Shown here: in pieces, positions 13,161 to 46,418 of the stretch
How positions within the stretch are numbered: position 1 is the first letter of the stretch
How the letters are laid out: every line of letters begins with the position of its first letter
Assembly: GCF_004362195.1 (NCBI RefSeq)
Contig: NZ_SNWG01000001.1
Span: 744,001-808,000 of the forward strand
Source: Microbacterium sp. BK668
GTDB taxonomy: Bacteria > Actinomycetota > Actinomycetes > Actinomycetales > Microbacteriaceae
DNA length: 64,000 nt
Reading direction: 5' to 3'
Notes under the pieces: model-generated
Database searches by the model: none
Told to the model about the DNA's origin: nothing
The model's input: the letters and a program-made list of their open reading frames with translations, nothing else
Program-made: the position numbers and the translations under genes

Positions 13161-15362
<2,202 letters not shown>

Positions 15363-16139: not shown

Positions 16140-16604
16140 ATGCGCATGGCAGGCTCCGGCCGGTTCGTCTTCGTCGCCCAGTGGGTCGCGGCGGTGCTGC
16201 TGCCGGTGTTCTTCTTCCTCGGCCGCGGCGCGGTCGGGGCGGAGCTCGGATGGCTGGCGCTCCTCGGCATCGTCTACGGCCTCTTCGTCATCCTGATGCT
16301 GCTCGTGCCGCCCCTGCTGACCCTGTTCGACACCGAGGGACGCCGTGCGCGCTCGACCCGGCTCGGGTACGACATCTCGACCTTCGTGCTGTGGCTGGGG
16401 GTCGTCGTCGGGTCGCTCACCGTCCCCGACTCCGGTGACAGCGGGCACCTGGACTCCGCTTTGTCCACGTGGACCGGCATGTCGTACGAGACGTCGCAGG
16501 CCGTCTTCATCGGTGCGGCCGTCGTGATCGGCCTCGCCTACCTCGCACAGTTCGCGACGGCGATCGCCGGCATCGTCCGGGGCCGGCAGGCCGCAGCCAC
16601 GTGA
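16140..16604 (+). CDS. Four-helix integral membrane protein, unknown function
   Basis: 154 aa with four predicted membrane helices (about residues 8-26, 33-55, 73-90 and 117-140) and short loops; no conserved motif recognised. The stop overlaps the GTG start of the UbiA gene (GTGA), so both are made from one transcript. It might assist the prenyltransferase or merely share its promoter. Confidence 0.7.
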   Translation: MRMAGSGRFVFVAQWVAAVLLPVFFFLGRGAVGAELGWLALLGIVYGLFVILMLLVPPLLTLFDTEGRRARSTRLGYDISTFVLWLGVVVGSLTVPDSGDSGHLDSALSTWTGMSYETSQAVFIGAAVVIGLAYLAQFATAIAGIVRGRQAAAT

Positions 16605-17443
16605 GGGTCGTCCGCGCGCTCTGGGGCTCGACGCATCCGGGGCCCACGCTCGTCGTCTCGGGCCTCGCACTCGCGCTCGGCATCGCGGTCGGTCTGGAGC
16701 CCTGGCGCCTTCTGCTGCTGACCCTGGCCGTCTTCTTCGGCCAGCTCTCGATCGGCCTGTCCAACGATGCGATCGACGCTCCCCGCGACCGGGCCGTGGG
16801 CCGCACCGACAAGCCGATCGCCCGCGGCGACGTCACCGAGCGCACGGCGTGGGGAGCCGCGATCGCGACAGCGGGGATCGCGCTGCTGCTCTCCGCCCCG
16901 CTCGGGTTCGGGATGCTGGCCGCCCACGCGATCTTCCTCGCGTCGGCGTGGTCGTACAACGCCGGACTGAAGTCCACGCCGCTGTCGATCGTGCCCTTCC
17001 TCGTGAGCTTCGGGATCTTCCCCTCGCTCGCGACGCTGGCCGCGCCCGACCCCGGCGTCGCCGCGCCCTGGGGGTGGATCGCCGGCGCCGCGCTCGGAGC
17101 GGCCGTGCACCTGACGAACGTCCTGCCCGACCTCGACGACGACCGCCGCACGGGGGTGCGCGGCCTGCCCCACCGGATGGGCGCCCGGGCCTCGGCCGTC
17201 GTCGCAGCAGCGGGGATCGTCGCGGGGGCGGTGGCGGTGCTCGTCGGCTCCTCGGGAGGAGACCTCGCCGCCGTGCCGCTCGTCGGGTGGGTCTTCTTCG
17301 CCGCTGTGGTGATCGTGGCGGCGGCGACGGCCGTGCTCGCCCTCGTGCGGCCGCCCACCCGCGCGCTCTTCCGACTGGTGATGCTCGCCGCGCTGCTGCT
17401 CGCGGCGCAGCTCGTCGCGACGGGCGGCGCCGTCGCCGCCTGA
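16601..17443 (+). CDS. UbiA-family prenyltransferase
   Basis: 280 aa from a GTG overlapping the previous stop. About eight membrane helices. The two Asp-rich Mg/prenyl-diphosphate motifs of UbiA enzymes are present: NDAIDAPRD (residues 55-63, matching NDxxDxxxD) and DLDDDRRTG (177-185). UbiA enzymes transfer a prenyl chain to an aromatic or quinol acceptor within the membrane. It lies convergent to a type III PKS operon; in Actinoplanes missouriensis a UbiA-like enzyme (AgqD) prenylates the alkyl hydroquinone made by a type III PKS, methyltransferase and monooxygenase. The same use is likely here, although separate transcription leaves a quinone or lipid role in primary metabolism possible. 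Confidence 0.88.
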   Translation: MRVVRALWGSTHPGPTLVVSGLALALGIAVGLEPWRLLLLTLAVFFGQLSIGLSNDAIDAPRDRAVGRTDKPIARGDVTERTAWGAAIATAGIALLLSAPLGFGMLAAHAIFLASAWSYNAGLKSTPLSIVPFLVSFGIFPSLATLAAPDPGVAAPWGWIAGAALGAAVHLTNVLPDLDDDRRTGVRGLPHRMGARASAVVAAAGIVAGAVAVLVGSSGGDLAAVPLVGWVFFAAVVIVAAATAVLALVRPPTRALFRLVMLAALLLAAQLVATGGAVAA

Positions 17444-17465
17444 CGCCGCCGCCCGCGCCCGCCGG

Positions 17466-17848
17466 CCGTCTTCGCCGAACCCGCACATCCGTGGCCGAGT
17501 CCACACACTCGAGCTGCCCGGATGTGCGGGCTCGAGCACGAGTGTGCGGCCTCGGCAGGCTCGGCGGCGGCGCCCGCCGGCGGTGTGGCGTGCCCGCCGG
17601 CCGCGCCCGACGGCCGTCTTGCCGAACCCGCACATCCGTGGCCGAGCCCACACACTCGAGCTGCCCGGATGTGCGGGCTCGAGCACGAGTGTGCGGCCTC
17701 GGCAGGCTCGGCGGCGGCGCCCGCCGGCGGTGTGGCGTGCCCGACGGCGGCGCCCGCCGGCCGTCTTCGCCGAACCCGCACATCCGTGGCCGAGTCCACG
17801 CACTCGAGCTGCCCGGATGTGCGGGCTCGAGCACGAGTGTGTGGATTG
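17466..17848. repeat. Three tandem copies of a 147-148 bp hairpin-bearing repeat
   Basis: Copies begin at 17466, 17614 and 17761, each opening CCGTCTT, the last cut short after about 88 bp. In the first copy CCCGCACATCC (17480-17490) pairs with GGATGTGCGGG (17520-17530) and CACACTCG (17504-17511) with CGAGTGTG (17539-17546), so alternative hairpins compete. A diverged single copy lies at 56457-56530. Confidence 0.9.
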
Positions 17849-17849
17849 G

Positions 17850-18020
17850 GGGTCGGCGGGGTGGGGTAGACGTGGGGGAGCGCGGGGGGAGAGACGTGGG
17901 TGGGCGGGGGAGAGCGGTGGGTGGAGCGCGACAGGCGCGGGTGGGGCGGGGTGGAAGAGGGGGGAGCGCGAGAGGCGTGGAAGAGGGGTCGGTGAGGGCG
18001 TGGGTGAGAGAGGGCTCGGT
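17850..18020 (+). other. G-rich, strand-asymmetric tract
   Basis: Runs of three to six G recur every 5-12 nt on the plus strand (GGGGG, GGGG, GGGGGG), interrupted by A and T but with few C. This is the composition needed for G-quadruplexes. Confidence 0.6.
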
Positions 18021-18030
18021 GCGACGGGGG

Positions 18031-19152
18031 TCAGACGTCGCGGTCGAAGCCCATCGAGTAGGTGTGGGCGAGCAGGCGGGCCCCGGGCGGCAGCAGCGCG
18101 ACCCGCAGCCCGGCGCGCCGCGCGGCGTCGCCCGCCGTGCCGCGGGGACGACCGAGCGAGGTGTTGAGCCCGGCGATCGCGGCGGCGGTCCGCGCCGAGG
18201 CGACGCGGCGCCTCTCCCACTGCGCGAGCTCGACCTCGGGCGCCGTGCCCGAACGCGCCCAGGCGGCGAGGAGCGGGGCGAGGGTCGCGGCATCCAGCAG
18301 TCCGAGATTCATGCCCTGCCCGCCGATGGGACTCACCTCGTGGGCCGTGTCGCCGATGACGAAGAGCCGGTCGCGCCGCAGCGCCGGCGCCACCGCGCGA
18401 CGCACGGCGAACGACGTGGCGCTCGCGATGGACGAGGCATCCTGACCCCGTCGTTCCAGCGCTCGCCGCAAACGGGCTGCACGGGCCTCGGGCGAGGAAT
18501 CGGCCGGGGCGGCGTCCCACGCCACGAACCGGCGCCTCGCGCCCGGAAGCGGGAACGACTCGAGCACGCCCTCACGGCCGATGTCGATCACGGCGAGGTC
18601 GCTGCCGTCTAGGGCTGCGACATCCGTCATGAGATACCGATCCGCGTACGATCGCACGCGCACGACGCCGGGGCGGTAGACGAGCGCGCGGGCGCGCCAA
18701 CCGCCCGCGACGACGACGAGCGGGGCCGTCAGCTCCTCCTCGTCGGCCGTGCGGACGCGGACCGATCCGCTCCCGGGGGAGACCTGCGTCACCTCGGCCG
18801 CGCGCCGCGCGGGGGGTGCCCCGGCGCCGAGAGCCTGCTCGGTCGCCGCCTGCGGCAGAGCGGCGACGAAGGGGAAGCGCCGGTTCAGCCGGTCGAACCG
18901 GACGACGCCGAGGCTCCGGCCATCCGATCGCGCCTCGCCGCGGGACACCCGCACCGCCGAAGCGAGGAGTCGCTCCGTGAGGCCGGATGCCTCGAGCGCC
19001 GCGAGCACGGGGGAGTGCACGCCGATCGCCCGTGACCCGTCGCTCGGTGTCGCGCGCTGCTCGAGCAGAGTCACCGCGACATCCCGGCGGACGAGCTCCG
19101 CGGCCAGGAGGGTTCCGACGGGTCCGGCGCCGACGACGACGACCTCAGGCAC
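18031..19152 (-). CDS. FAD-dependent monooxygenase (PHBH/UbiH type)
   Basis: 373 aa from GTG. The FAD fold begins at once (VVVVGAGPVGTLLAAELVRR, GxGxxG at residues 8-13), and the second FAD motif GDTAHEVSPIGGQGMNLG stands near residue 265-282. It is last in the operon MFS-PKS-methyltransferase-monooxygenase. By analogy with SrsC of Streptomyces griseus and AgqC of Actinoplanes it would hydroxylate an alkylresorcinol ring, giving a hydroquinone that oxidises to a quinone. The start lies 23 nt after the methyltransferase stop; a 31-bp tandem duplication created that gap. Confidence 0.87.
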   Translation of the reverse strand: MPEVVVVGAGPVGTLLAAELVRRDVAVTLLEQRATPSDGSRAIGVHSPVLAALEASGLTERLLASAVRVSRGEARSDGRSLGVVRFDRLNRRFPFVAALPQAATEQALGAGAPPARRAAEVTQVSPGSGSVRVRTADEEELTAPLVVVAGGWRARALVYRPGVVRVRSYADRYLMTDVAALDGSDLAVIDIGREGVLESFPLPGARRRFVAWDAAPADSSPEARAARLRRALERRGQDASSIASATSFAVRRAVAPALRRDRLFVIGDTAHEVSPIGGQGMNLGLLDAATLAPLLAAWARSGTAPEVELAQWERRRVASARTAAAIAGLNTSLGRPRGTAGDAARRAGLRVALLPPGARLLAHTYSMGFDRDV

Positions 19153-19205
19153 GGGTGCCCGCCTCGGCGACGACCTCAGGCACGGGCGCCCGCCTCGGCG
19201 ACGAC
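19144..19205. repeat. 31-bp tandem duplication at the methyltransferase/monooxygenase junction
   Basis: Two copies of CTCAGGCACGGG(T/C)GCCCGCC and flanking bases, about 19144-19205, differing at one base. Each holds the methyltransferase stop and a GTG start signal. Without the duplication the stop and the next start would overlap as GTGCCTGA. Confidence 0.8.
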
Positions 19206-19868
19206 GCGGAACGGCGAGGCATCCGTAACGGTCCAGCGCGTGCCGAGTGCGGCGCCGAGCTCGGCGGCCCGGAAGCTCCGGCGGATCGACCTCAGCCCGT
19301 CGGTCCGGAGGAACGTCCCCGGCGCGAAGGGCGTGATCGCCACGGCGTACAGGCCGTACGCCCACCGGCTGCGGCGGATGTCGGAGTGCAGCGCGATGCC
19401 GTCGCTGAGCGCGAGCGAATCGGCGGCGAACGCGTCGAGATCCGCCGCACCGAGGTGGTGCAGCACGTGGTTGGACAGCACGGCGTCGAACCGCTCGCCC
19501 CCTGCGCGGAGCGCCGAGGCATCCGTCGCCCGGAACTCGATGCGCGACGACGCCCGCTCCTGCGCGACCGCGAGCGCCCGTTCGTCGGGATCGGCGCCGA
19601 CCCACCGCACGTCGATCCCGTCCCGCTCGGCTCTGCGGGCCAGGCGCGCGACGAGGTCTCCACCGCCCGACCCGAGATCGAGCACGCGCGCCGGACGCTC
19701 GAGCGAGGCGAGGAACGGCCCGAGCCGCGCGCGATACAGGGCGCCCCATCCGCTCCACAGCCGATTGACGACGTCGAAGCGGCGCAGGGTCGCAGCCAGG
19801 CGCGCGGGATCGCAGCGCGGGTCGTCCATCAGTTCGGCGACGACGGTGTCGCGCGCGCGGAGGCTCAC
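19176..19868 (-). CDS. Class I SAM-dependent methyltransferase
   Basis: 230 aa from a GTG that overlaps the PKS stop (GTGA). The SAM-binding motif I is VLDLGSGGGDLVARLA; motif II lies in WVGADPDERALAVAQ; NHVLHHLGAADL is the usual post-I stretch. In the type III PKS operons it resembles (SrsB, AgqB) the enzyme methylates the resorcinol product, at oxygen or carbon depending on the system. Tight coupling to the PKS gene indicates a dedicated substrate. Confidence 0.87.
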   Translation of the reverse strand: MSLRARDTVVAELMDDPRCDPARLAATLRRFDVVNRLWSGWGALYRARLGPFLASLERPARVLDLGSGGGDLVARLARRAERDGIDVRWVGADPDERALAVAQERASSRIEFRATDASALRAGGERFDAVLSNHVLHHLGAADLDAFAADSLALSDGIALHSDIRRSRWAYGLYAVAITPFAPGTFLRTDGLRSIRRSFRAAELGAALGTRWTVTDASPFRVVAEAGARA

Positions 19869-20974
19869 GCCGTCGTCCGGCGGAGGAGCGCCGATTCGAC
19901 CGTCAAGCCGGGCCCGAACGCCAGTGCGGCGACCTCGGAGTCGCCGAGGGCGTCGTCTTCGAGGAGGTCGCGCAGGATGAACAAAATGGTCGCGCTCGAC
20001 ATGTTGCCGTGGCGGCGGAGGACGTCGCGGGATGCCGCGAGCGCCGCGGGATCGAGCGCGAGGCCCGACTCGACGCGGTCGAGCACGCTCCGGCCGCCGG
20101 GGTGCACCGCCCACACCTGCGGTTCGTCACCGCCGAGGAACGAGCCGACGGCCTCCCGGATCTCGCGTCCGATGATGCGGGGCACCTCGGCGGTGAGGAT
20201 CATGTCGAAGCCCTGATCGCCGATGGTCCACACCATCTCCGATTCGCCCTCGCTCGTCAGCACCGTGCCGAAGCGGCCGAGCGCGAGCCGGGGACCGCCG
20301 GCGAACGACCGTGCGGAGACGACGGCGGCCGCCGCACCGTCGGCGAAGACGGATGCCGCGACGATCTGCTGCGGGTCCTCCGACGAGCGGATGTGCAGCG
20401 TGCACAGCTCCGCCGCCGCGACGAGCACGACGGCGTCGGGCTGCGAGTCGCAGATCCGCGCGGCGGCGCGCAGGCCCGGGATCGCGGCCGCGCATCCCAT
20501 GAATCCGATGTGGTACCGCTCGACCGCCGACGACAGCCCCAGGTCCTTCACGAGCCGGAAGTCGGGCCCCGGCGCGAACATCCCCGTGCACGACACCGTC
20601 ACGACGTGTGTCACCTCGTCCGGCCGCACTCCGGCGCCGGCGAGCGCGTGGGCGGATGCCTCGGCGAAGAGCGGCGGCGCCAGCCGGATGTACGCGTCGT
20701 TGCGGACCCCGGTCGAGGGTGCCTGGATCGTGCCGTCCTCGCCGGCCAGCGGCATCCCGCTCTCCGAGACGGCCGGCACGCCCGACGCGACGGCCACGAG
20801 GTCGGACAGGACGGTGTTGCGGTGCTCGATCGCCGAGGCGTCGAACGCGGCATGGATGAGCCTCTGCGTGACCCGGCTGAGGCCCGGCTGCGCCTGGAAG
20901 ACGTCTCGGGCCGCTTCTTGCGAAACGCGAGCCGGGGGGACGGCGGTGCCGATCGACAGGATGCTCGCGGCCAT
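19865..20974 (-). CDS. Type III polyketide synthase (chalcone/alkylresorcinol synthase-like)
   Basis: 369 aa, the standard length of the family. The Cys-His-Asn triad is present: C129 in VTVSCTGMFAPG, H291 in WAVHPGGRSVLD, N324 in RRHGNMSSATI, and the AFGPGLTVE loop stands near the C-terminus. Such enzymes extend an acyl-CoA starter with malonyl-CoA and cyclise it on one active site. Operon partners (methyltransferase, monooxygenase, exporter, nearby UbiA) favour an alkylresorcinol-type lipid over a small pyrone, but starter and cyclisation cannot be read. The ATG has AAGGTGG upstream; TAAGGT 5 nt before the start could also serve as an internal -10. Confidence 0.92.
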   Translation of the reverse strand: MAASILSIGTAVPPARVSQEAARDVFQAQPGLSRVTQRLIHAAFDASAIEHRNTVLSDLVAVASGVPAVSESGMPLAGEDGTIQAPSTGVRNDAYIRLAPPLFAEASAHALAGAGVRPDEVTHVVTVSCTGMFAPGPDFRLVKDLGLSSAVERYHIGFMGCAAAIPGLRAAARICDSQPDAVVLVAAAELCTLHIRSSEDPQQIVAASVFADGAAAAVVSARSFAGGPRLALGRFGTVLTSEGESEMVWTIGDQGFDMILTAEVPRIIGREIREAVGSFLGGDEPQVWAVHPGGRSVLDRVESGLALDPAALAASRDVLRRHGNMSSATILFILRDLLEDDALGDSEVAALAFGPGLTVESALLRRTTA

Positions 20975-21000
20975 GGTCCACCTTAGGCACGCGTGACCCG

Positions 21001-22470
21001 CTACCGGCGCGATTCCCCGCCATCCTCCAGGGGCTGCACGTCGGGGTCGGGAAGCTCGCCGAGGGTCCAGAAGGGGCCGGTCACGACGAACAGGGTCGCC
21101 AGCAGCTGGCCGACGGCGCCGATCCACAGGGTCGGGACGACGCCGATCCACTGGCCGAGCGCGCCGAAGACGAGGGCGCCGATCGGCATGACGCCCCACA
21201 CGACGAAGCGGATGGACGCGTTCATGCGCCCGAGGAGGCGCGTCGGCGTGATCCGCTGGCGGAACGTCACCTGCGTGATGTTGTAGAGCAGCACCGTGAA
21301 GCTGCCGAGGAAGAATGCCACCACGAGCATCGGCACCGCGAGCGACGGCACGAGCACGACGAGCGGCACGAGCAGCGGGGCGAGTCCGAACAGGATCGAC
21401 GCGACCGGGATCGCCCGCGCCTCGCCGATTCGCTCGACGATGTGCGGCGTCGCGATCGCGCCGAGGAGGCCGCCGACAGCGCCGAGCGAGAACACCAGGC
21501 CGAACGAGGCGACGCTCAGCCCGAGCTCCCGCAGCGCGAAGATGGCGATGAGGGTCGTCGAGGCCATGTTGAAGAAGTTCGAGACCGACGTCGTGCCGAC
21601 GATGCGCCGCAGCAGACGGTTGCGGAAGACCCACCTCAGGCCCTCGCCGATCTCCTTGATGAGCGGCTCGTGCTCGTGGGCGGGGCGCAGCGTCTCGCGG
21701 TCCTTCGTGAACAGCAGCGCCGCGAACGACACCAGATACGTGCCGCTGGTGATGAGGATGGCGAAGGGGGCCGCGATCACGCCGAGGAGCCACCCGCCGA
21801 ACGCGGGACCCGCCAGTCCCGCCAGCTGCTCCGTCGACTGCAGCTTTCCGTTGGCCTCGGCGATCTGATCGCGCCGCACGAGCGACGGGACGATGCTCTG
21901 ATTCGACACGTCGAAGAACACGGTGGCCACGCCCATGACCAGTGCGACGACGTAGATGTGCCACATCTGCAGCGCTCCGAGGACGGCGAGAAGGGGCAGC
22001 GCGCTGAGCGCGACCGCACGGACGAGGTCGGCCCAGATCATGACGTGCCGCTTGCGCACGCGGTCGATCCATGCCCCCGCCGGAAGCCCCACGACGAGGA
22101 AGGCCGCGACGTTGGCAGCCGTCAGCACGCCCACCTGCCACTCCGACGCGTTCAGCAGCAGCACGGCGAGCACGGGGATCGCGAGCTCGGTGATCTGGGC
22201 GCCGAACTGGCTGAGCGCCTGTCCGCTCCACATCGTGAGGAAGTTGCGGTCATGCCACAGCGAGCCCTTCGGCGCGGACGTGGCCGCCGGCGCTCCCGCG
22301 GTCCGCCTCTCGAGGTCCTGGTCGGCTTCGACGGCGTCGTCGGCCGATCCCCGGGACGTCGGGATGGATGCTTCGGCCCGCGCTTCGGCGAGCACCTCGC
22401 CCGCGGAGGGGGAGTCCGCTCCGGATGCGACACGGCCGTGGGCGCCGGCATCCCGGGGTGATTGAGACAT
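21001..22470 (-). CDS. MFS exporter of the PKS operon
   Basis: 489 aa; ATG at 22470. A hydrophilic N-terminal tail of about 75 residues precedes twelve membrane helices; the segment FLTMWSGQALSQFGAQITELAIPVL and the loop GLPAGAWIDRVRKRH are typical of the MFS_3 (EntS-like) exporter group. It stops 26 nt before the PKS start and runs in the same direction, so it heads the operon and probably exports the product or confers tolerance to it. The promoter is TTGACA-N17-CACACT ending 7 nt before the ATG and is embedded in GATTG/CAATC repeats, likely the operator of a regulator such as the ArsR-like protein at 23059. Confidence 0.88.
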   Translation of the reverse strand: MSQSPRDAGAHGRVASGADSPSAGEVLAEARAEASIPTSRGSADDAVEADQDLERRTAGAPAATSAPKGSLWHDRNFLTMWSGQALSQFGAQITELAIPVLAVLLLNASEWQVGVLTAANVAAFLVVGLPAGAWIDRVRKRHVMIWADLVRAVALSALPLLAVLGALQMWHIYVVALVMGVATVFFDVSNQSIVPSLVRRDQIAEANGKLQSTEQLAGLAGPAFGGWLLGVIAAPFAILITSGTYLVSFAALLFTKDRETLRPAHEHEPLIKEIGEGLRWVFRNRLLRRIVGTTSVSNFFNMASTTLIAIFALRELGLSVASFGLVFSLGAVGGLLGAIATPHIVERIGEARAIPVASILFGLAPLLVPLVVLVPSLAVPMLVVAFFLGSFTVLLYNITQVTFRQRITPTRLLGRMNASIRFVVWGVMPIGALVFGALGQWIGVVPTLWIGAVGQLLATLFVVTGPFWTLGELPDPDVQPLEDGGESRR

Positions 22471-22471
22471 G

Positions 22472-22508
22472 CCAATCAGTGTGCGGCGCCGATTGGGGAT
22501 TGTCAATC
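22472..22508 (-). promoter_or_regulatory. Promoter and GATTG/CAATC operator of the PKS operon
   Basis: On the minus strand TTGACA (22506-22501), 17 nt, CACACT (22483-22478), 7 nt, ATG. Overlaid are GATTG-T-CAATC (22498-22508) and CCAATC/GATTGG (22472-22477 and 22491-22496); CTGATTG occurs as a direct repeat on both sides of the promoter. Confidence 0.6.
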
Positions 22509-22598
22509 AGCGGTCTGCCGAGCGGGCTCCTCTCCTCTGGACACGTGCTCGCGGCAGGAGGATCGTGTGGAACGGCACAACTGTGTGGGGAGGATGCC

Positions 22599-23009
22599 AT
22601 GTTCACACCGGATCGACCGTTCTCGAGCTTCGCCGTCCCGGACCTGGAGGCCGCCGTCGCCTTCTACCGCGACACCCTGGGGCTCGACCTCACCGTCTAC
22701 GAGGAGATGGGGGGAGGCTTCACCATCACCCTCCCGCAAGGCGGCGCGATCTTCGTCTATCCCAAACCCGATCACGAGCCGGCCGTCTTCACCGTCCTCA
22801 ACTTCGACGTCGAGGACGTCGAGGCCGCGGTCGACGACCTCAACCAGCGCGGAGTCGTCACGAAGATCTACACCGACCCCGATTACGGCACCGACGAGAA
22901 GGGCATCTCGCGCGGGTTCGAGGGCGGCCCGGACATCGCGTGGTTCCGCGACCCGGCGGGCAACGTCATCGCCGTCGGCAGGATGATGCCCCCGATGATG
23001 GGCGGGTGA
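22599..23009 (+). CDS. VOC family (glyoxalase-like) protein
   Basis: 136 aa with two beta-alpha-beta-beta-beta modules: FSSFAVPDLEAAVAFYRDTLGL starts the first, AVFTVLNFDVEDVEAAVDDL the second, and IAWFRDPAGNVIAVGR closes it with the usual C-terminal metal-ligand region. The VOC family includes glyoxalases, dioxygenases and drug-binding proteins. It is divergent from the exporter and followed closely by the ArsR-like regulator, so it may take part in resistance or in handling the PKS product. An AGG site precedes the ATG. Confidence 0.82.
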   Translation: MFTPDRPFSSFAVPDLEAAVAFYRDTLGLDLTVYEEMGGGFTITLPQGGAIFVYPKPDHEPAVFTVLNFDVEDVEAAVDDLNQRGVVTKIYTDPDYGTDEKGISRGFEGGPDIAWFRDPAGNVIAVGRMMPPMMGG

Positions 23010-23046
23010 CGGATCGCCGACCGATCGGGAAACCTCGATCGGTCGC

Positions 23047-23052
23047 TAGAGT
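23047..23052 (+). promoter_or_regulatory. -10 hexamer TAGAGT of the ArsR-like gene
   Basis: 6 nt before the GTG at 23059, in the 49-nt gap after the VOC gene, so the regulator can be made separately. Confidence 0.5.
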
Positions 23053-23058
23053 CGGAGC

Positions 23059-23682
23059 GTGAGCGACCAGGAGCGGATCGAGCTGCGGCCGGGTGATCCC
23101 GACGCCGAAGCCCGGATGCGGGCGCTCAGCTCGCCTCTGCGCCTGCGCATCCTGCGCCTGTGCGCCTTCGAGTCGCGCACGAACAAGGAGCTCGCCGGCC
23201 TTCTGGGCGTCAACCCCGGCACGATGCTGCACCATGTGCGCACGCTCCTGAACACCGGCTATCTCGCCGCCGAGCCGGATCGGGCGGGAGCGCAGGGTGC
23301 CCGCGAAGTGCCCTATCGGGCGACGGGGCTCTCGTGGCGGACGTCGATGCCCGGCGGCTCGTACATCCTCGTCGAGACCTTCCTGCAGCAGATCGAGAGC
23401 GTGCGCGACGAGGACCTCGATACGACGTGGCTCGGCCTGAAGCTCAACGACGAGCACCGCGAGGAGCTGCAGAACCGGCTCATGCTCCTCGTGAACGAGT
23501 TCAAGGAGCGCGGCCCCGACCCGGACGGTGACACCTACTCGCTGTTCACGGCGTTCCACCCGGACGACAATCCGCCCGGCCCCGCACAGCCGCCTCAGAG
23601 CTCCGCACAGCCGCCTCAGAGCTCCGCACAGCCGCCTCAGAGCTCCGGCCAGGCCTCCGGCCCGGAAGAGCCCGCGGGGTAA
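23059..23682 (+). CDS. ArsR-like winged-helix regulator with repeat tail
   Basis: 207 aa from GTG. A winged helix occupies residues about 14-80 (RALSSPLRLRILRLCAFESRTNKELAGLLGVNPGTMLHHVRTL shows the recognition helix). The middle has no known fold. The C-terminus contains three identical AQPPQSS repeats coded by a 21-bp tandem repeat at 23584-23646 and is probably disordered. No metal-binding Cys cluster is visible, so this is not a metal sensor of the classical ArsR type. It is the best candidate for binding the GATTG/CAATC sites at 22472-22508. Its last 46 bp overlap the 3' end of zwf on the other strand. Confidence 0.82.
   Translation: MSDQERIELRPGDPDAEARMRALSSPLRLRILRLCAFESRTNKELAGLLGVNPGTMLHHVRTLLNTGYLAAEPDRAGAQGAREVPYRATGLSWRTSMPGGSYILVETFLQQIESVRDEDLDTTWLGLKLNDEHREELQNRLMLLVNEFKERGPDPDGDTYSLFTAFHPDDNPPGPAQPPQSSAQPPQSSAQPPQSSGQASGPEEPAG
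23584..23646 (+). repeat. 21-bp tandem repeat, three units
   Basis: Three identical units GCACAGCCGCCTCAGAGCTC+C in frame within the ArsR-like gene; the third unit runs into the zwf stop on the opposite strand. Confidence 0.9.
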
Positions 23683-43343: not shown

Positions 43344-44744
43344 TCAGAGGGCGCGCAGGATGTCCTCGACCCGGTCCTTGGCATCGCCGAAGAGCATCTG
43401 GGCGTTCTCCCGGAAGAACAGCGGGTTCTGAACGCCGGCATACCCCGACGCCATCGAGCGCTTGAAGACGACGACGTTCTCGGCATCCCACACGCGCAGC
43501 ACCGGCATCCCGGCGATCGGGGACGACGGGTCCTCCGACGCTGCCGGGTTGACCGTGTCGTTCGCCCCGATGACCAGCACGACCGACGTGTCGGAGAAGT
43601 CGTCGTTGATCTCATCCATCTCGAGGACGATGTCGTACGGCACCTTCGCCTCGGCCAGGAGGACGTTCATGTGCCCCGGGAGGCGACCGGCGACGGGATG
43701 GATGCCGAACCGCACGTCGACGCCGCGCTCGCGCAGCTGCGACGCGAGCTCTGCGACCGGGTACTGCGCTTGCGCGACGGCCATGCCGTACCCCGGCGTG
43801 ATGACGACGCTCGACGCCGAGGCGAGGAGCTCGGCGACGCCCTGCGCGTCGATCTCCCGGTGCTCGCCCACCTCGTCGTCCGACGAGCGCGGGGCCTCGA
43901 TGCCGAAGCCGCCCGCGATGACCGACAGGAACGAGCGGTTCATCGCCTTGCACATGATGTAGCTCAGGTACGCGCCCGACGAGCCGACGAGGGCGCCCGT
44001 CACGATCAGCAGGTCGTTGTCGAGGAGGAAGCCCGCGGCCGCCGCCGCCCAGCCGGAGTAGCTGTTGAGCATCGACACGACGACGGGCATGTCGCCCCCG
44101 CCGATCGAGGCGACCAGATGCCAGCCGAGGGCGAGCGCGAGGATCGTCACGACGATCAGGAGCCAGAGCTCGGGCGTGATGACGTACCAGACCGTCAGGG
44201 CGATGAAGACGACCAGAGCGCCGAGGTTGAGCGCGTTCCTGCCCGGCAGCATGAGGGGCTTCGACGACATCCGGGCCGAGAGCTTGAGGAAGGCGACGAT
44301 CGACCCTGTGAACGTCACGCCGCCGATGAAGACCCCGATGAAGACCTCGGCGTGGTGGATGTCGGCCAGCGTCCCGGTCAGTCCGGTGTCGTACAGCGCG
44401 CCGTTCCAGCCGACGAGCACGGCGGCCAGACCCACGAAGCTGTGCAGCAGTGCGATGAGCTCCGGCATCCCGGTCATCTCGACCACCCGCGCCCGCCACA
44501 GGCCGATCGACCCGCCGATCAGCACCGCCACGACGAGCAGCACCAGCCCCAGTGGCGCACCCGGGGTGGTCCAGGCATCCTCAGCCGTGAGCCACGCCGT
44601 CGCGACCAGGGCGATCGCCATTCCGGCAATGCCGTAGACGACACCGCCGCGCGCCGTCTCGTGCTTGCTGAGTCCGTGCAGGCTCAGGATGAACAGGATC
44701 GCCGCGACGAGGTAGGCCGCGGTCGCGATCGACGCCGCGGTCAC
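43344..44744 (-). CDS. pntB: NAD(P) transhydrogenase beta subunit
   Basis: 466 aa from a GTG overlapping the pntA stop. Nine or so membrane helices form the proton channel domain; the C-terminal NADP(H)-binding domain III has [19 protein letters not shown] and [12 protein letters not shown]. The enzyme couples hydride transfer from NADH to NADP+ with proton entry, supplying NADPH. Length matches E. coli PntB (462 aa). Confidence 0.94.
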
Positions 44745-46291
44745 CTGTCGACGCCCTTGGAGAACATCGCGAGCATGCGGCGGGTGACCGCGAAGCCGCC
44801 GAAGATGTTGATGCTCGCCAGCAGCACCGCCGCCGTCGCCAGGACCTGCACCGTCGGATCCGGGACGGTGATCTGCACCATCGCGCCGACGATGATGATG
44901 CCCGAGATCGCGTTGGTCACGCTCATGAGCGGGGTGTGCAGGGCGTGGTGGACGTGCCCGATCACGTAGAAGCCGACGACGACCGACAGCACGAGCACCG
45001 TCAGGTGCTGCGGCAGGGGCGGCGGCGCGACGGCCGCGAGGGCGAAGAGCACCGCGACTCCGGCGACGAGGAGGCCGATGCGCGCGCCCCGCGAGATCCC
45101 CGCGCGCTTCGCGGGCGGCGTCGGGGGAACGGATGCCGCGGCCGCCGCACCGGCAGGCGCGGCCGACACGGCGACAGGCGGAGGCGGCCACGTCGACTCG
45201 CCGTCGCGGACGACGGTGATCGAACGCTGGACGACGTCGTCGAAGTCGAGGACGAGCGCGCCGTCCTTGCCCGGCGTCAGGAGCTTGACGAGATTGAGGA
45301 GGTTCGTCGCGTAGAGCTGCGAGGCCTGCGTCGGCAACCGCCCGGCCAGGTCGGTGTACCCGAGGATGACGACGCCGTTGCCGGTCACGACGCGCTCGCC
45401 GGCGACCGAGCCCTCGACGTTGCCGCCCTGCGAGGCGGCCATGTCGACGATGACGCTTCCGGGGCGCATCGCCGCGACATCCGCGGCCGTGACAAGCCGG
45501 GGCGCGGCGCGACCCGGGATCAGCGCCGTGGTGATGATGATGTCGACGTCTCGCGCCTGCGCCGAGTACAGGTCGGCCGCGGCGCGGTCGTAGGCCTCGC
45601 TCGTCGCGCGGGCATAGCCGTCGGCGGTCTGCATGTTCTCGTCCACCTCGACGGGGAGGTACTCGCCGCCGATCGAGCGCACCTGGTCGGCCACCTCCGG
45701 GCGGGGGTCCGTCGCCCGGACGATCGCGCCGAGGCTCGAGGCCGCGCCGATCGCCGCGAGTCCAGCGACGCCGGCACCCGCGACGAGCACCTTGGCCGGC
45801 GGCACCTTGCCGGCGGCGGTCACCTGGCCGGTGAAGAAGCGGCCGAACTCGTGCGCCGCCTCCACGACGGCGCGGTAGCCGGCGATGTTCGCCATCGAGC
45901 TGAGCACGTCCATCGACTGCGCGCGGGAGATGCGGGGCACGGCGTCGAGTGCGAGCGCCGTGATGCCGCGGGTGGTGAGCGACTCGCGGACGTCGGGGCG
46001 CAGGGCCGGGCTCAGCATTCCGAGAAGCGTCGCGCCGTCGGCGAGCAGGGCGACCTCGTCGGGCGTGGGCGGGTCGACCTTCAGCACGATGGGCGACGAC
46101 CAGGCCGTCACGCGATCGACGATCTCGGCGCCGGCCCCCTCGAAGTCGGTGTCGGGGAACGCGGATGCCTCGCCCGCACTCCTTTCGACCACGACCTCGT
46201 ACCCGAGCCCGCGCAGCTTGCCGACGGTGACGGGCGTCGCGGCGACGCGGTTCTCTCCGGGCTGTTCAGCGACGATGCCGATGCGGGTCAT
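44741..46291 (-). CDS. pntA: NAD(P) transhydrogenase alpha subunit
   Basis: 516 aa starting at [16 protein letters not shown], chosen for its AGGAG site and family fit (E. coli PntA is 510 aa); a longer frame to 46405 exists. NAD-binding domain [28 protein letters not shown]. After a Pro/Ala-rich linker (about 375-400) come the membrane helices of domain II, so the cytosolic and membrane parts are fused as in E. coli rather than split into PntAA and PntAB. Operon with pntB. Confidence 0.94.
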
Positions 46292-46418
46292 CCAGGCTCC
46301 TGTGCTCACGTCCGAGCGCCGGCGCAGCAGCCGGGGCGGGCTGCGTCGGCGCACTTCCTCCGACTCTAGGAGCCGCCCGGACCCGGAGGCGCTCGGAACG
46401 CTCACGAACGTGTTTCGA

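Follow-up and report, generated by a model that had tools for sequence, protein, structure and literature searches.

A probable four-gene unit for a prenylated alkylresorcinol-derived membrane lipid in Microbacterium sp. BK668

A 64,000-nucleotide stretch of the Microbacterium sp. BK668 genome (contig NZ_SNWG01000001.1, positions 744,001 to 808,000; hereafter the window) contains a minus-strand operon encoding a type III polyketide synthase (PKS), a methyltransferase (MT) and a flavin adenine dinucleotide (FAD)-dependent monooxygenase, with a convergent gene for a UbiA-family prenyltransferase. The named proteins closest to this PKS and UbiA come from Microbacterium, with a single "Microbacter" entry among them. 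These four genes probably constitute a biosynthetic unit for a prenylated, alkylresorcinol-derived membrane lipid. The PKS-MT-FAD core appears to belong with operons of Deinococcus and then with hierridin-type clusters of planctomycetes, and the unit as a whole appears to combine this Deinococcus-shared enzyme core with a type of UbiA also employed by other actinobacteria. An initial annotation of the window had proposed a locus for a prenylated alkylquinone-like lipid, akin to the Srs and Agq clusters and equipped with a dedicated exporter and regulator. Of that proposal, the type III PKS locus and its prenylated alkylresorcinol- or hydroquinone-like lipid are retained; the Agq/Srs descent, exporter and regulator are not.

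Co-occurrence of the four genes

Querying 149 Microbacterium genomes with the window PKS returned matches in 125, which were split on the identity of the best match into group A (at least 58%; 78 genomes) and group B (at most 54%; 47 genomes), with 24 genomes lacking a match; no genome carried both groups (0/149). Across this set of related genomes, an orthologue of the window UbiA (E < 1e-70; the next match was 2.7e-7) was found in 74 of 78 group-A genomes, in none of the 47 group-B genomes, and in none of the 24 PKS-less genomes (0/71 outside group A). It lies less than 10 kb from the PKS in 71 of the 74. Gene order was inspected in 20 of the 78 group-A loci and 20 of the 47 group-B loci: PKS-MT-FAD with a convergent UbiA occurs in all 20 of the former, while the latter contain PKS-MT (20/20) and usually FAD (16/20), and never UbiA (0/20). 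The window's arrangement, which recurs in every inspected group-A locus, is not a matter of chance. Additionally, in two PKS-less genomes (L134, L135) the whole UbiA-FAD-MT-PKS block is absent between the ClpB and MFS genes, ClpB being followed by MFS and ArsR either directly or past one small membrane gene; in a third (L136), some 5 kb separate the MFS and ArsR genes from the ClpB match. PKS, MT, FAD, and UbiA behave as one unit. The same arrangement recurs in loci of other Microbacteriaceae genera (L097, L098, L099, L100, L101, L105), and one further locus from another genus (L102) has UbiA on the opposite side.

It is quite unlikely, in our assessment, that the UbiA is a mere neighbour acting elsewhere, whether for menaquinone, haem, a C50 carotenoid, or some unlinked lipid, and that the PKS operon alone would yield a methylated alkylresorcinol or quinone, as in Deinococcus and group-B Microbacterium. 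Such a reading is consistent with the frequent lack of UbiA among relatives of the core, both in the inspected group-B loci and in the Deinococcus stretches, where none is annotated. It is also consistent with the distribution at class level, where 105 UbiA matches outside the family, taken down to about 6e-37, include at least 37 that lie less than 10 kb from a PKS, 19 with a PKS elsewhere in the genome and 49 with none, leaving 68 without a PKS inside 10 kb, all among the PKS matches listed. Against it stand the lack of an orthologue in every one of the 71 genus genomes outside group A, the two empty sites, where UbiA is missing along with the rest of the block, and the presence of three other UbiA proteins in the genome, where UbiA is matched four times in all and the type III PKS family PF02797 once. 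These three other proteins, termed CtaB-, CrtEb- and MenA-like by eye, score poorly against the profile of the window family (no match for the CtaB-like protein; 17 and 28 bits for the other two). A menaquinone- or haem-type UbiA shared by PKS-less relatives, which the initial annotation had named as contrary evidence, was not seen within the genus; the 0/71 count and the weak profile scores rule out an enzyme of that type common to all relatives.

Type III PKS clusters of four types (A–D) have been published for Microbacterium, where they are among the commonest biosynthetic clusters; the available text gives a frequency of 79% of 70 genomes (PMC7438953), compared with 125/149 here. That text assigns no product to them, and the word "prenyltransferase" is absent from the main text. 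A search of the full-text literature by title or abstract opening, in which subscription papers were mostly outside the scope, found no published description of the present variant.

The group-B operons occupy a site unlike that of group A: a dihydrolipoamide-dehydrogenase-like gene adjoins 19 of the 20 inspected (L034–L053), and apparent DNA-repair polymerase genes (named by eye; clusters F3, F5, F11) also lie beside most of them. A Microbacterium plasmid (L118, NZ_CP072877.1) contains a group-B-like PKS region in which the PKS was matched in two pieces and is perhaps broken; its gene table, which is incomplete, has no PKS gene.

Descent of the enzyme core and the prenyltransferase

The window PKS retains Cys161, His291, and Asn324, each shared by 95% or more of the 64 rows in the alignment; this Cys-His-Asn triad is that of chalcone synthase (CHS), and the PDB relatives of the protein share the CHS fold, so that both fold and triad are those of a type III PKS. 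Phylogenies comprised a careful tree of 37 rows, a quick tree of 72 rows, and a further tree with three named Actinoplanes PKSs added. The window PKS groups with those of other UbiA-bearing Microbacteriaceae (support 100/100 in the 37-row tree and 94/100 in the Actinoplanes-added tree), and these in turn join Deinococcus, group B, and others (100/100 and 100/99, respectively). The next branch outward is Methylobacterium/Sphingobium (92/89), after which the planctomycete Paludisphaera joins (97/88 with 37 rows, 93/86 with Actinoplanes added; not resolved in the quick tree). Agq-like PKSs of Frankia (L076) and of a same-family genome fall outside (97/91), the rows L077 and L078 sharing only the Frankia family code. 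Further out (98/94) are the Srs-type PKSs together with a long-branched tetrahydroxynaphthalene synthase (THNS) reference, L121, whose best PDB match (5.9e-164) is 1u0m, which we take to be a THNS; the window PKS stands apart from it, and the RppA-type branching named in advance as refuting by the initial annotation was not seen.

A tree forced to place the Actinoplanes and Frankia-family PKSs with the window's group is worse by 316 log units (approximately unbiased (AU) test, p = 1.6e-36), for a set named after sight of an earlier tree and with Actinoplanes PKSs as stand-ins for AgqA. Identities of the window PKS are 33–35% to four Actinoplanes PKSs and 35%, over 285 residues, to the Srs-type PKS of L112. 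These trees and the AU test rule out a close relationship to the Agq or Srs PKSs, as far as the stand-ins represent them.

The Deinococcus operons (D. radiodurans, NZ_OV024759.1; D. proteolyticus, NC_015169.1) contain the window's PKS, MT, and FAD genes in identical order, with identities of 49, 43, and 40% for D. radiodurans and 48, 44, and 37% for D. proteolyticus. They differ in that their FAD enzyme retains the Asp of the DG motif (see below) and that no UbiA is annotated within the 6 kb fetched on each side. We know of no product for this operon. Deinococcus PKS-MT-FAD operons occur on plasmid records (L116, L117, L127), and a glycosyltransferase gene follows in two of these three.

The two Asp motifs of the window UbiA (NDAIDAPRD and LPDLDDD) are both intact in the alignment, and its model (pLDDT 95.3) has an all-helical intramembrane fold that matches UbiA structures (TM 0.74 to 7bpu), as expected of the UbiA superfamily. 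The protein is 43% identical to the UbiA of a Frankia locus with the order UbiA-MT-acyl-CoA dehydrogenase-PKS, an Agq-like stand-in for AgqD; in the UbiA tree, long outgroup branches are placed unreliably. Related UbiA genes lie beside actinobacterial type III PKSs with three sets of tailoring enzymes: MT and acyl-CoA dehydrogenase in Frankia, ICMT and FAD enzyme in Srs-type loci such as L085, and class I MT and FAD enzyme in the window.

Like the window, the Agq cluster of Actinoplanes missouriensis, which reportedly produces alkyl-O-dihydrogeranyl-methoxyhydroquinones, and the loseolamycin locus pair a type III PKS with a UbiA. The Agq PKS, however, belongs to another clade (by its Actinoplanes and Frankia stand-ins), and where the window has a FAD_binding_3 enzyme, the Agq-like Frankia locus and the loseolamycin locus (PMC7587189, available text) have an acyl-CoA dehydrogenase. 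Srs-type clusters (Streptomyces griseus; relatives in Microbacteriaceae) share with the window a PKS, an MT, and a FAD enzyme in one operon; they differ in lacking UbiA in seven loci of the family (L109–L115) and in their MT, an ICMT membrane protein occupying the MT slot in both loci checked against Pfam. An ICMT has likewise been published as SrsB in Marisediminicola antarctica, in the part of PMC6669644 available. The window MT is a class I enzyme of NCBIfam family PRK06202 (246.5 bits against a cut-off of 243), and a BLAST comparison with the MT encoded in the Agq-like Frankia locus gave no match. Descent from the Srs or Agq clusters, as initially proposed, is thus not borne out: only the UbiA of the locus appears to be of the Agq-like kind, the MT is not the Srs ICMT, and the core resembles those of Deinococcus and the hierridin clusters.

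The hierridin clusters of cyanobacteria (hidCAB/hidABC) and the planctomycete MT-FAD-PKS operon consist, as in the window, of a PKS, an MT, and a FAD oxidoreductase; a gene order of hidC>hidA>hidB, which agrees with the window's, is reported in the available text of PMC8086630, which reports a prenyltransferase in one hierridin-like cluster only, unlike the window. The hierridin comparison was made through Paludisphaera, the Srs, Agq, and Hid clusters all being represented by stand-in loci, and gave identities of 41% for the PKS, 36% for the MT, and 34% over only 56 residues for the FAD enzyme.

Tailoring enzymes and the predicted product

The window monooxygenase, for which rifampin monooxygenase is the best PDB match, keeps the GxGxxG and GD motifs of group A flavoprotein monooxygenases (motif roles as described in the available part of PMC3546652) and lacks the full set, as its DG motif reads AGG (Asp to Gly). 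Among 93 proteins compared (the best profile match per locus at E 1e-40, with loci lacking such a match dropped), GD is kept in all 93 and the GxGxxG glycines in all 92 with letters there. The DG Asp is missing in 63 of 66 UbiA-linked proteins and kept in 24 of 27 others. The exceptions are Asp loss without UbiA in L138 and L139, retention with UbiA in L099, L100, and L177, and L096, whose UbiA is on another contig and which was set by hand as UbiA-bearing in the trait mapping. On the tree, the DG loss and UbiA each need three changes, giving at most three independent pairs, too few for a test. DG-Asp loss is a trait of the window's monooxygenase clade with few changes on the tree, so that a link between the loss and prenylation is only suggested.

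Most likely, the product would be a prenylated, methylated alkylresorcinol or alkylhydroquinone. In the putative route, the PKS would build a 5-alkylresorcinol by condensing malonyl-CoA units with a long-chain acyl thioester, and the class I MT would methylate it once, either at carbon or at oxygen. Ring hydroxylation by the FAD monooxygenase would give a hydroquinone, oxidisable to a quinone, and UbiA would attach a prenyl chain in the membrane. These reactions, their order, the prenyl length, and the role of the product are inferred. In the available text of PMC10896814, planctomycete relatives expressed in Corynebacterium glutamicum gave alkylresorcinols, and co-expression of the MT and FAD genes added a single methyl group, probably on carbon according to the authors. 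From these products, the compound expected for the window would be an alkylresorcinol that carries a prenyl chain and one methyl group, perhaps on carbon, and that may be hydroxylated on the ring. As the nearest tested relative of the MT appears to methylate carbon, "methoxy" is not safe for the product, and a methoxyhydroquinone as in Agq may be one option among several.

That the PKS instead makes alkylpyrones or another non-resorcinol product, on which the tailoring enzymes then act, is very improbable. In its favour, the PKSs of Microbacterium have been annotated in the literature as alpha-pyrone types, Pks11/Pks18 (PMC7438953, in the text available); the PKS trees here contain no Pks11 or Pks18 row. 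The alkylresorcinols obtained from the planctomycete sequence relatives speak against it, as does the pairing of a ring-hydroxylating type of FAD enzyme with UbiA, which would fit a phenol. A more ambitious form of the preferred reading, rather unlikely as a whole, is that a Deinococcus-type core and an Agq-type UbiA were joined in Microbacteriaceae, and that the resulting pathway, spread through nearly the whole lineage, makes a new alkyl(hydro)quinone that is both prenylated and C-methylated, with an altered flavoenzyme taking part. The product might then, with the same low probability, be plastoquinone- or tocopherol-like in outline, and the flavoenzyme might, no more probably, dispense with the usual NAD(P)H hydride uptake and act as an oxidase or on a substrate that is already prenylated and membrane-bound.

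Several points weigh against the four-gene unit and its proposed product. Four group-A genomes have no UbiA; the assemblies of two (G044, G132) are in hundreds of contigs, and in the other two (G057, G148; loci L138, L139) PKS-MT-FAD is present with no UbiA across the 15–16 kb inspected, so that UbiA is dispensable in some lineages. The genomes are related, so that the contrast of 74/78 with 0/71 does not amount to 149 independent events and its p-values are inflated; for this reason, weight is placed on linkage and on the absence of the block. The product and function of the unit are predicted from its genes, and the prenyl acceptor is putative. The available text of PMC10896814 leaves the role of the planctomycete FAD gene open, and the window's FAD enzyme, having lost the DG Asp, cannot be assumed to hydroxylate in the standard NAD(P)H-driven way.

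Flanking genes and implications for Microbacterium

Pfam and NCBIfam matches confirm the initially annotated gene set and positions, including the UbiA gene convergent to the operon (Table 1). The contiguity with GTGA overlaps described there holds for the PKS stop and MT start, a four-base overlap that is the single one inside the operon, and fails for MFS-PKS (26-bp gap) and MT-FAD (23-bp gap). A further GTGA overlap joins UbiA to a preceding small membrane-protein frame (stop 16604); start codons of the window genes were picked from homology.

Table 1. Features of the PKS locus and its surroundings, in window coordinates (aa, amino acids)
Feature	Position	Strand	Basis or remark
Type III PKS, 369 aa, alkylresorcinol-synthase-like	19865-20974	-	Chal_sti_synt_N/C (PF00195/PF02797) 2.8e-25, 4.4e-22; trees
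Class I S-adenosylmethionine MT, 230 aa	19176-19868	-	Methyltransf_25 3.4e-15; NCBIfam PRK06202/NF004851
FAD-dependent monooxygenase, 373 aa, group A type	18031-19152	-	FAD_binding_3 (PF01494) 3.1e-34
UbiA-family intramembrane prenyltransferase, 280 aa	16601-17443	+	UbiA (PF01040) 1.5e-25
MFS exporter, flank	21001-22470	-	MFS_1 7.8e-33
VOC/glyoxalase-fold protein, flank	22599-23009	+	PF00903
ArsR-like winged-helix regulator, flank	23059-23682	+	PF01022
ClpB/ClpL-type AAA chaperone, usual left flank of block	13161-15362	+	Present in 18/20 group-A loci
147-bp tandem repeat, 2.7 copies, partly self-inverted	17446-17841		Between convergent UbiA and FAD gene ends; TRF

An MFS orthologue (at least 63% identity) occurs in 36 of 149 genomes (30/78 in group A, 0/47 in group B, 6/24 PKS-less). 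Less than 10 kb separates it from the PKS in 26 of the 78 group-A genomes; no group-B genome shows such proximity. In the inspected group-A loci, MFS and ArsR are found together in the same 9 of 20; a VOC match is present in 13 of 20, at variable positions. Where MFS sits away from the PKS, a divergent ArsR adjoins it in all six inspected loci, three of them drawn from the six PKS-less genomes with MFS. The MFS/ArsR pair looks like a module of its own. Since L134 and L135 keep ClpB, MFS, and ArsR while the whole block is absent, the MFS, VOC, and ArsR genes look like a flank outside the biosynthetic cluster, though co-transcription of MFS and PKS across the 26-bp gap is possible in this strain. 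The claim that the locus has its own exporter and regulator is abandoned, both genes being rejected as cluster parts on the basis of the PKS-independent pairing and the two empty sites. A Methylobacterium oryzae plasmid (L123, NZ_CP090350.1) carries MFS, PKS, MT, and FAD monooxygenase genes in the window's order.

It is distinctly improbable that the locus belongs to the Agq/Srs type, includes a dedicated exporter and regulator, and makes alkyl-O-prenyl-methoxyhydroquinones. The identity of its UbiA to the Agq-like Frankia enzyme, the position of MFS directly before the PKS and its proximity in group A only, and the Methylobacterium plasmid would all agree with such a cluster; the separation of the PKS from the Actinoplanes and Frankia PKSs (by the AU test on a set named post hoc), the ICMT in the two Srs-type loci, and the MFS/ArsR pairs found without a PKS and at the empty sites argue against it.

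The 147-bp repeat yields only short or weak matches in the rest of the genome, and the junction of the MT and monooxygenase genes (~19139-19200) holds a direct duplication of about 31 bp, spotted by eye. Elsewhere in the window (43344-46405) are adjacent NAD(P) transhydrogenase subunits (PNTB; AlaDh/PNT).

Related UbiA enzymes thus sit beside three different sets of tailoring enzymes, and the kinds of genes present are by themselves insufficient for naming such loci "alkyl-O-dihydrogeranyl-methoxyhydroquinone" clusters. The type III PKS loci of Microbacterium are of two kinds, one having a prenyltransferase and one lacking it, never found together in the 149 genomes; this split makes it testable whether UbiA-bearing strains hold a prenylated phenolic lipid that is missing from strains without UbiA.

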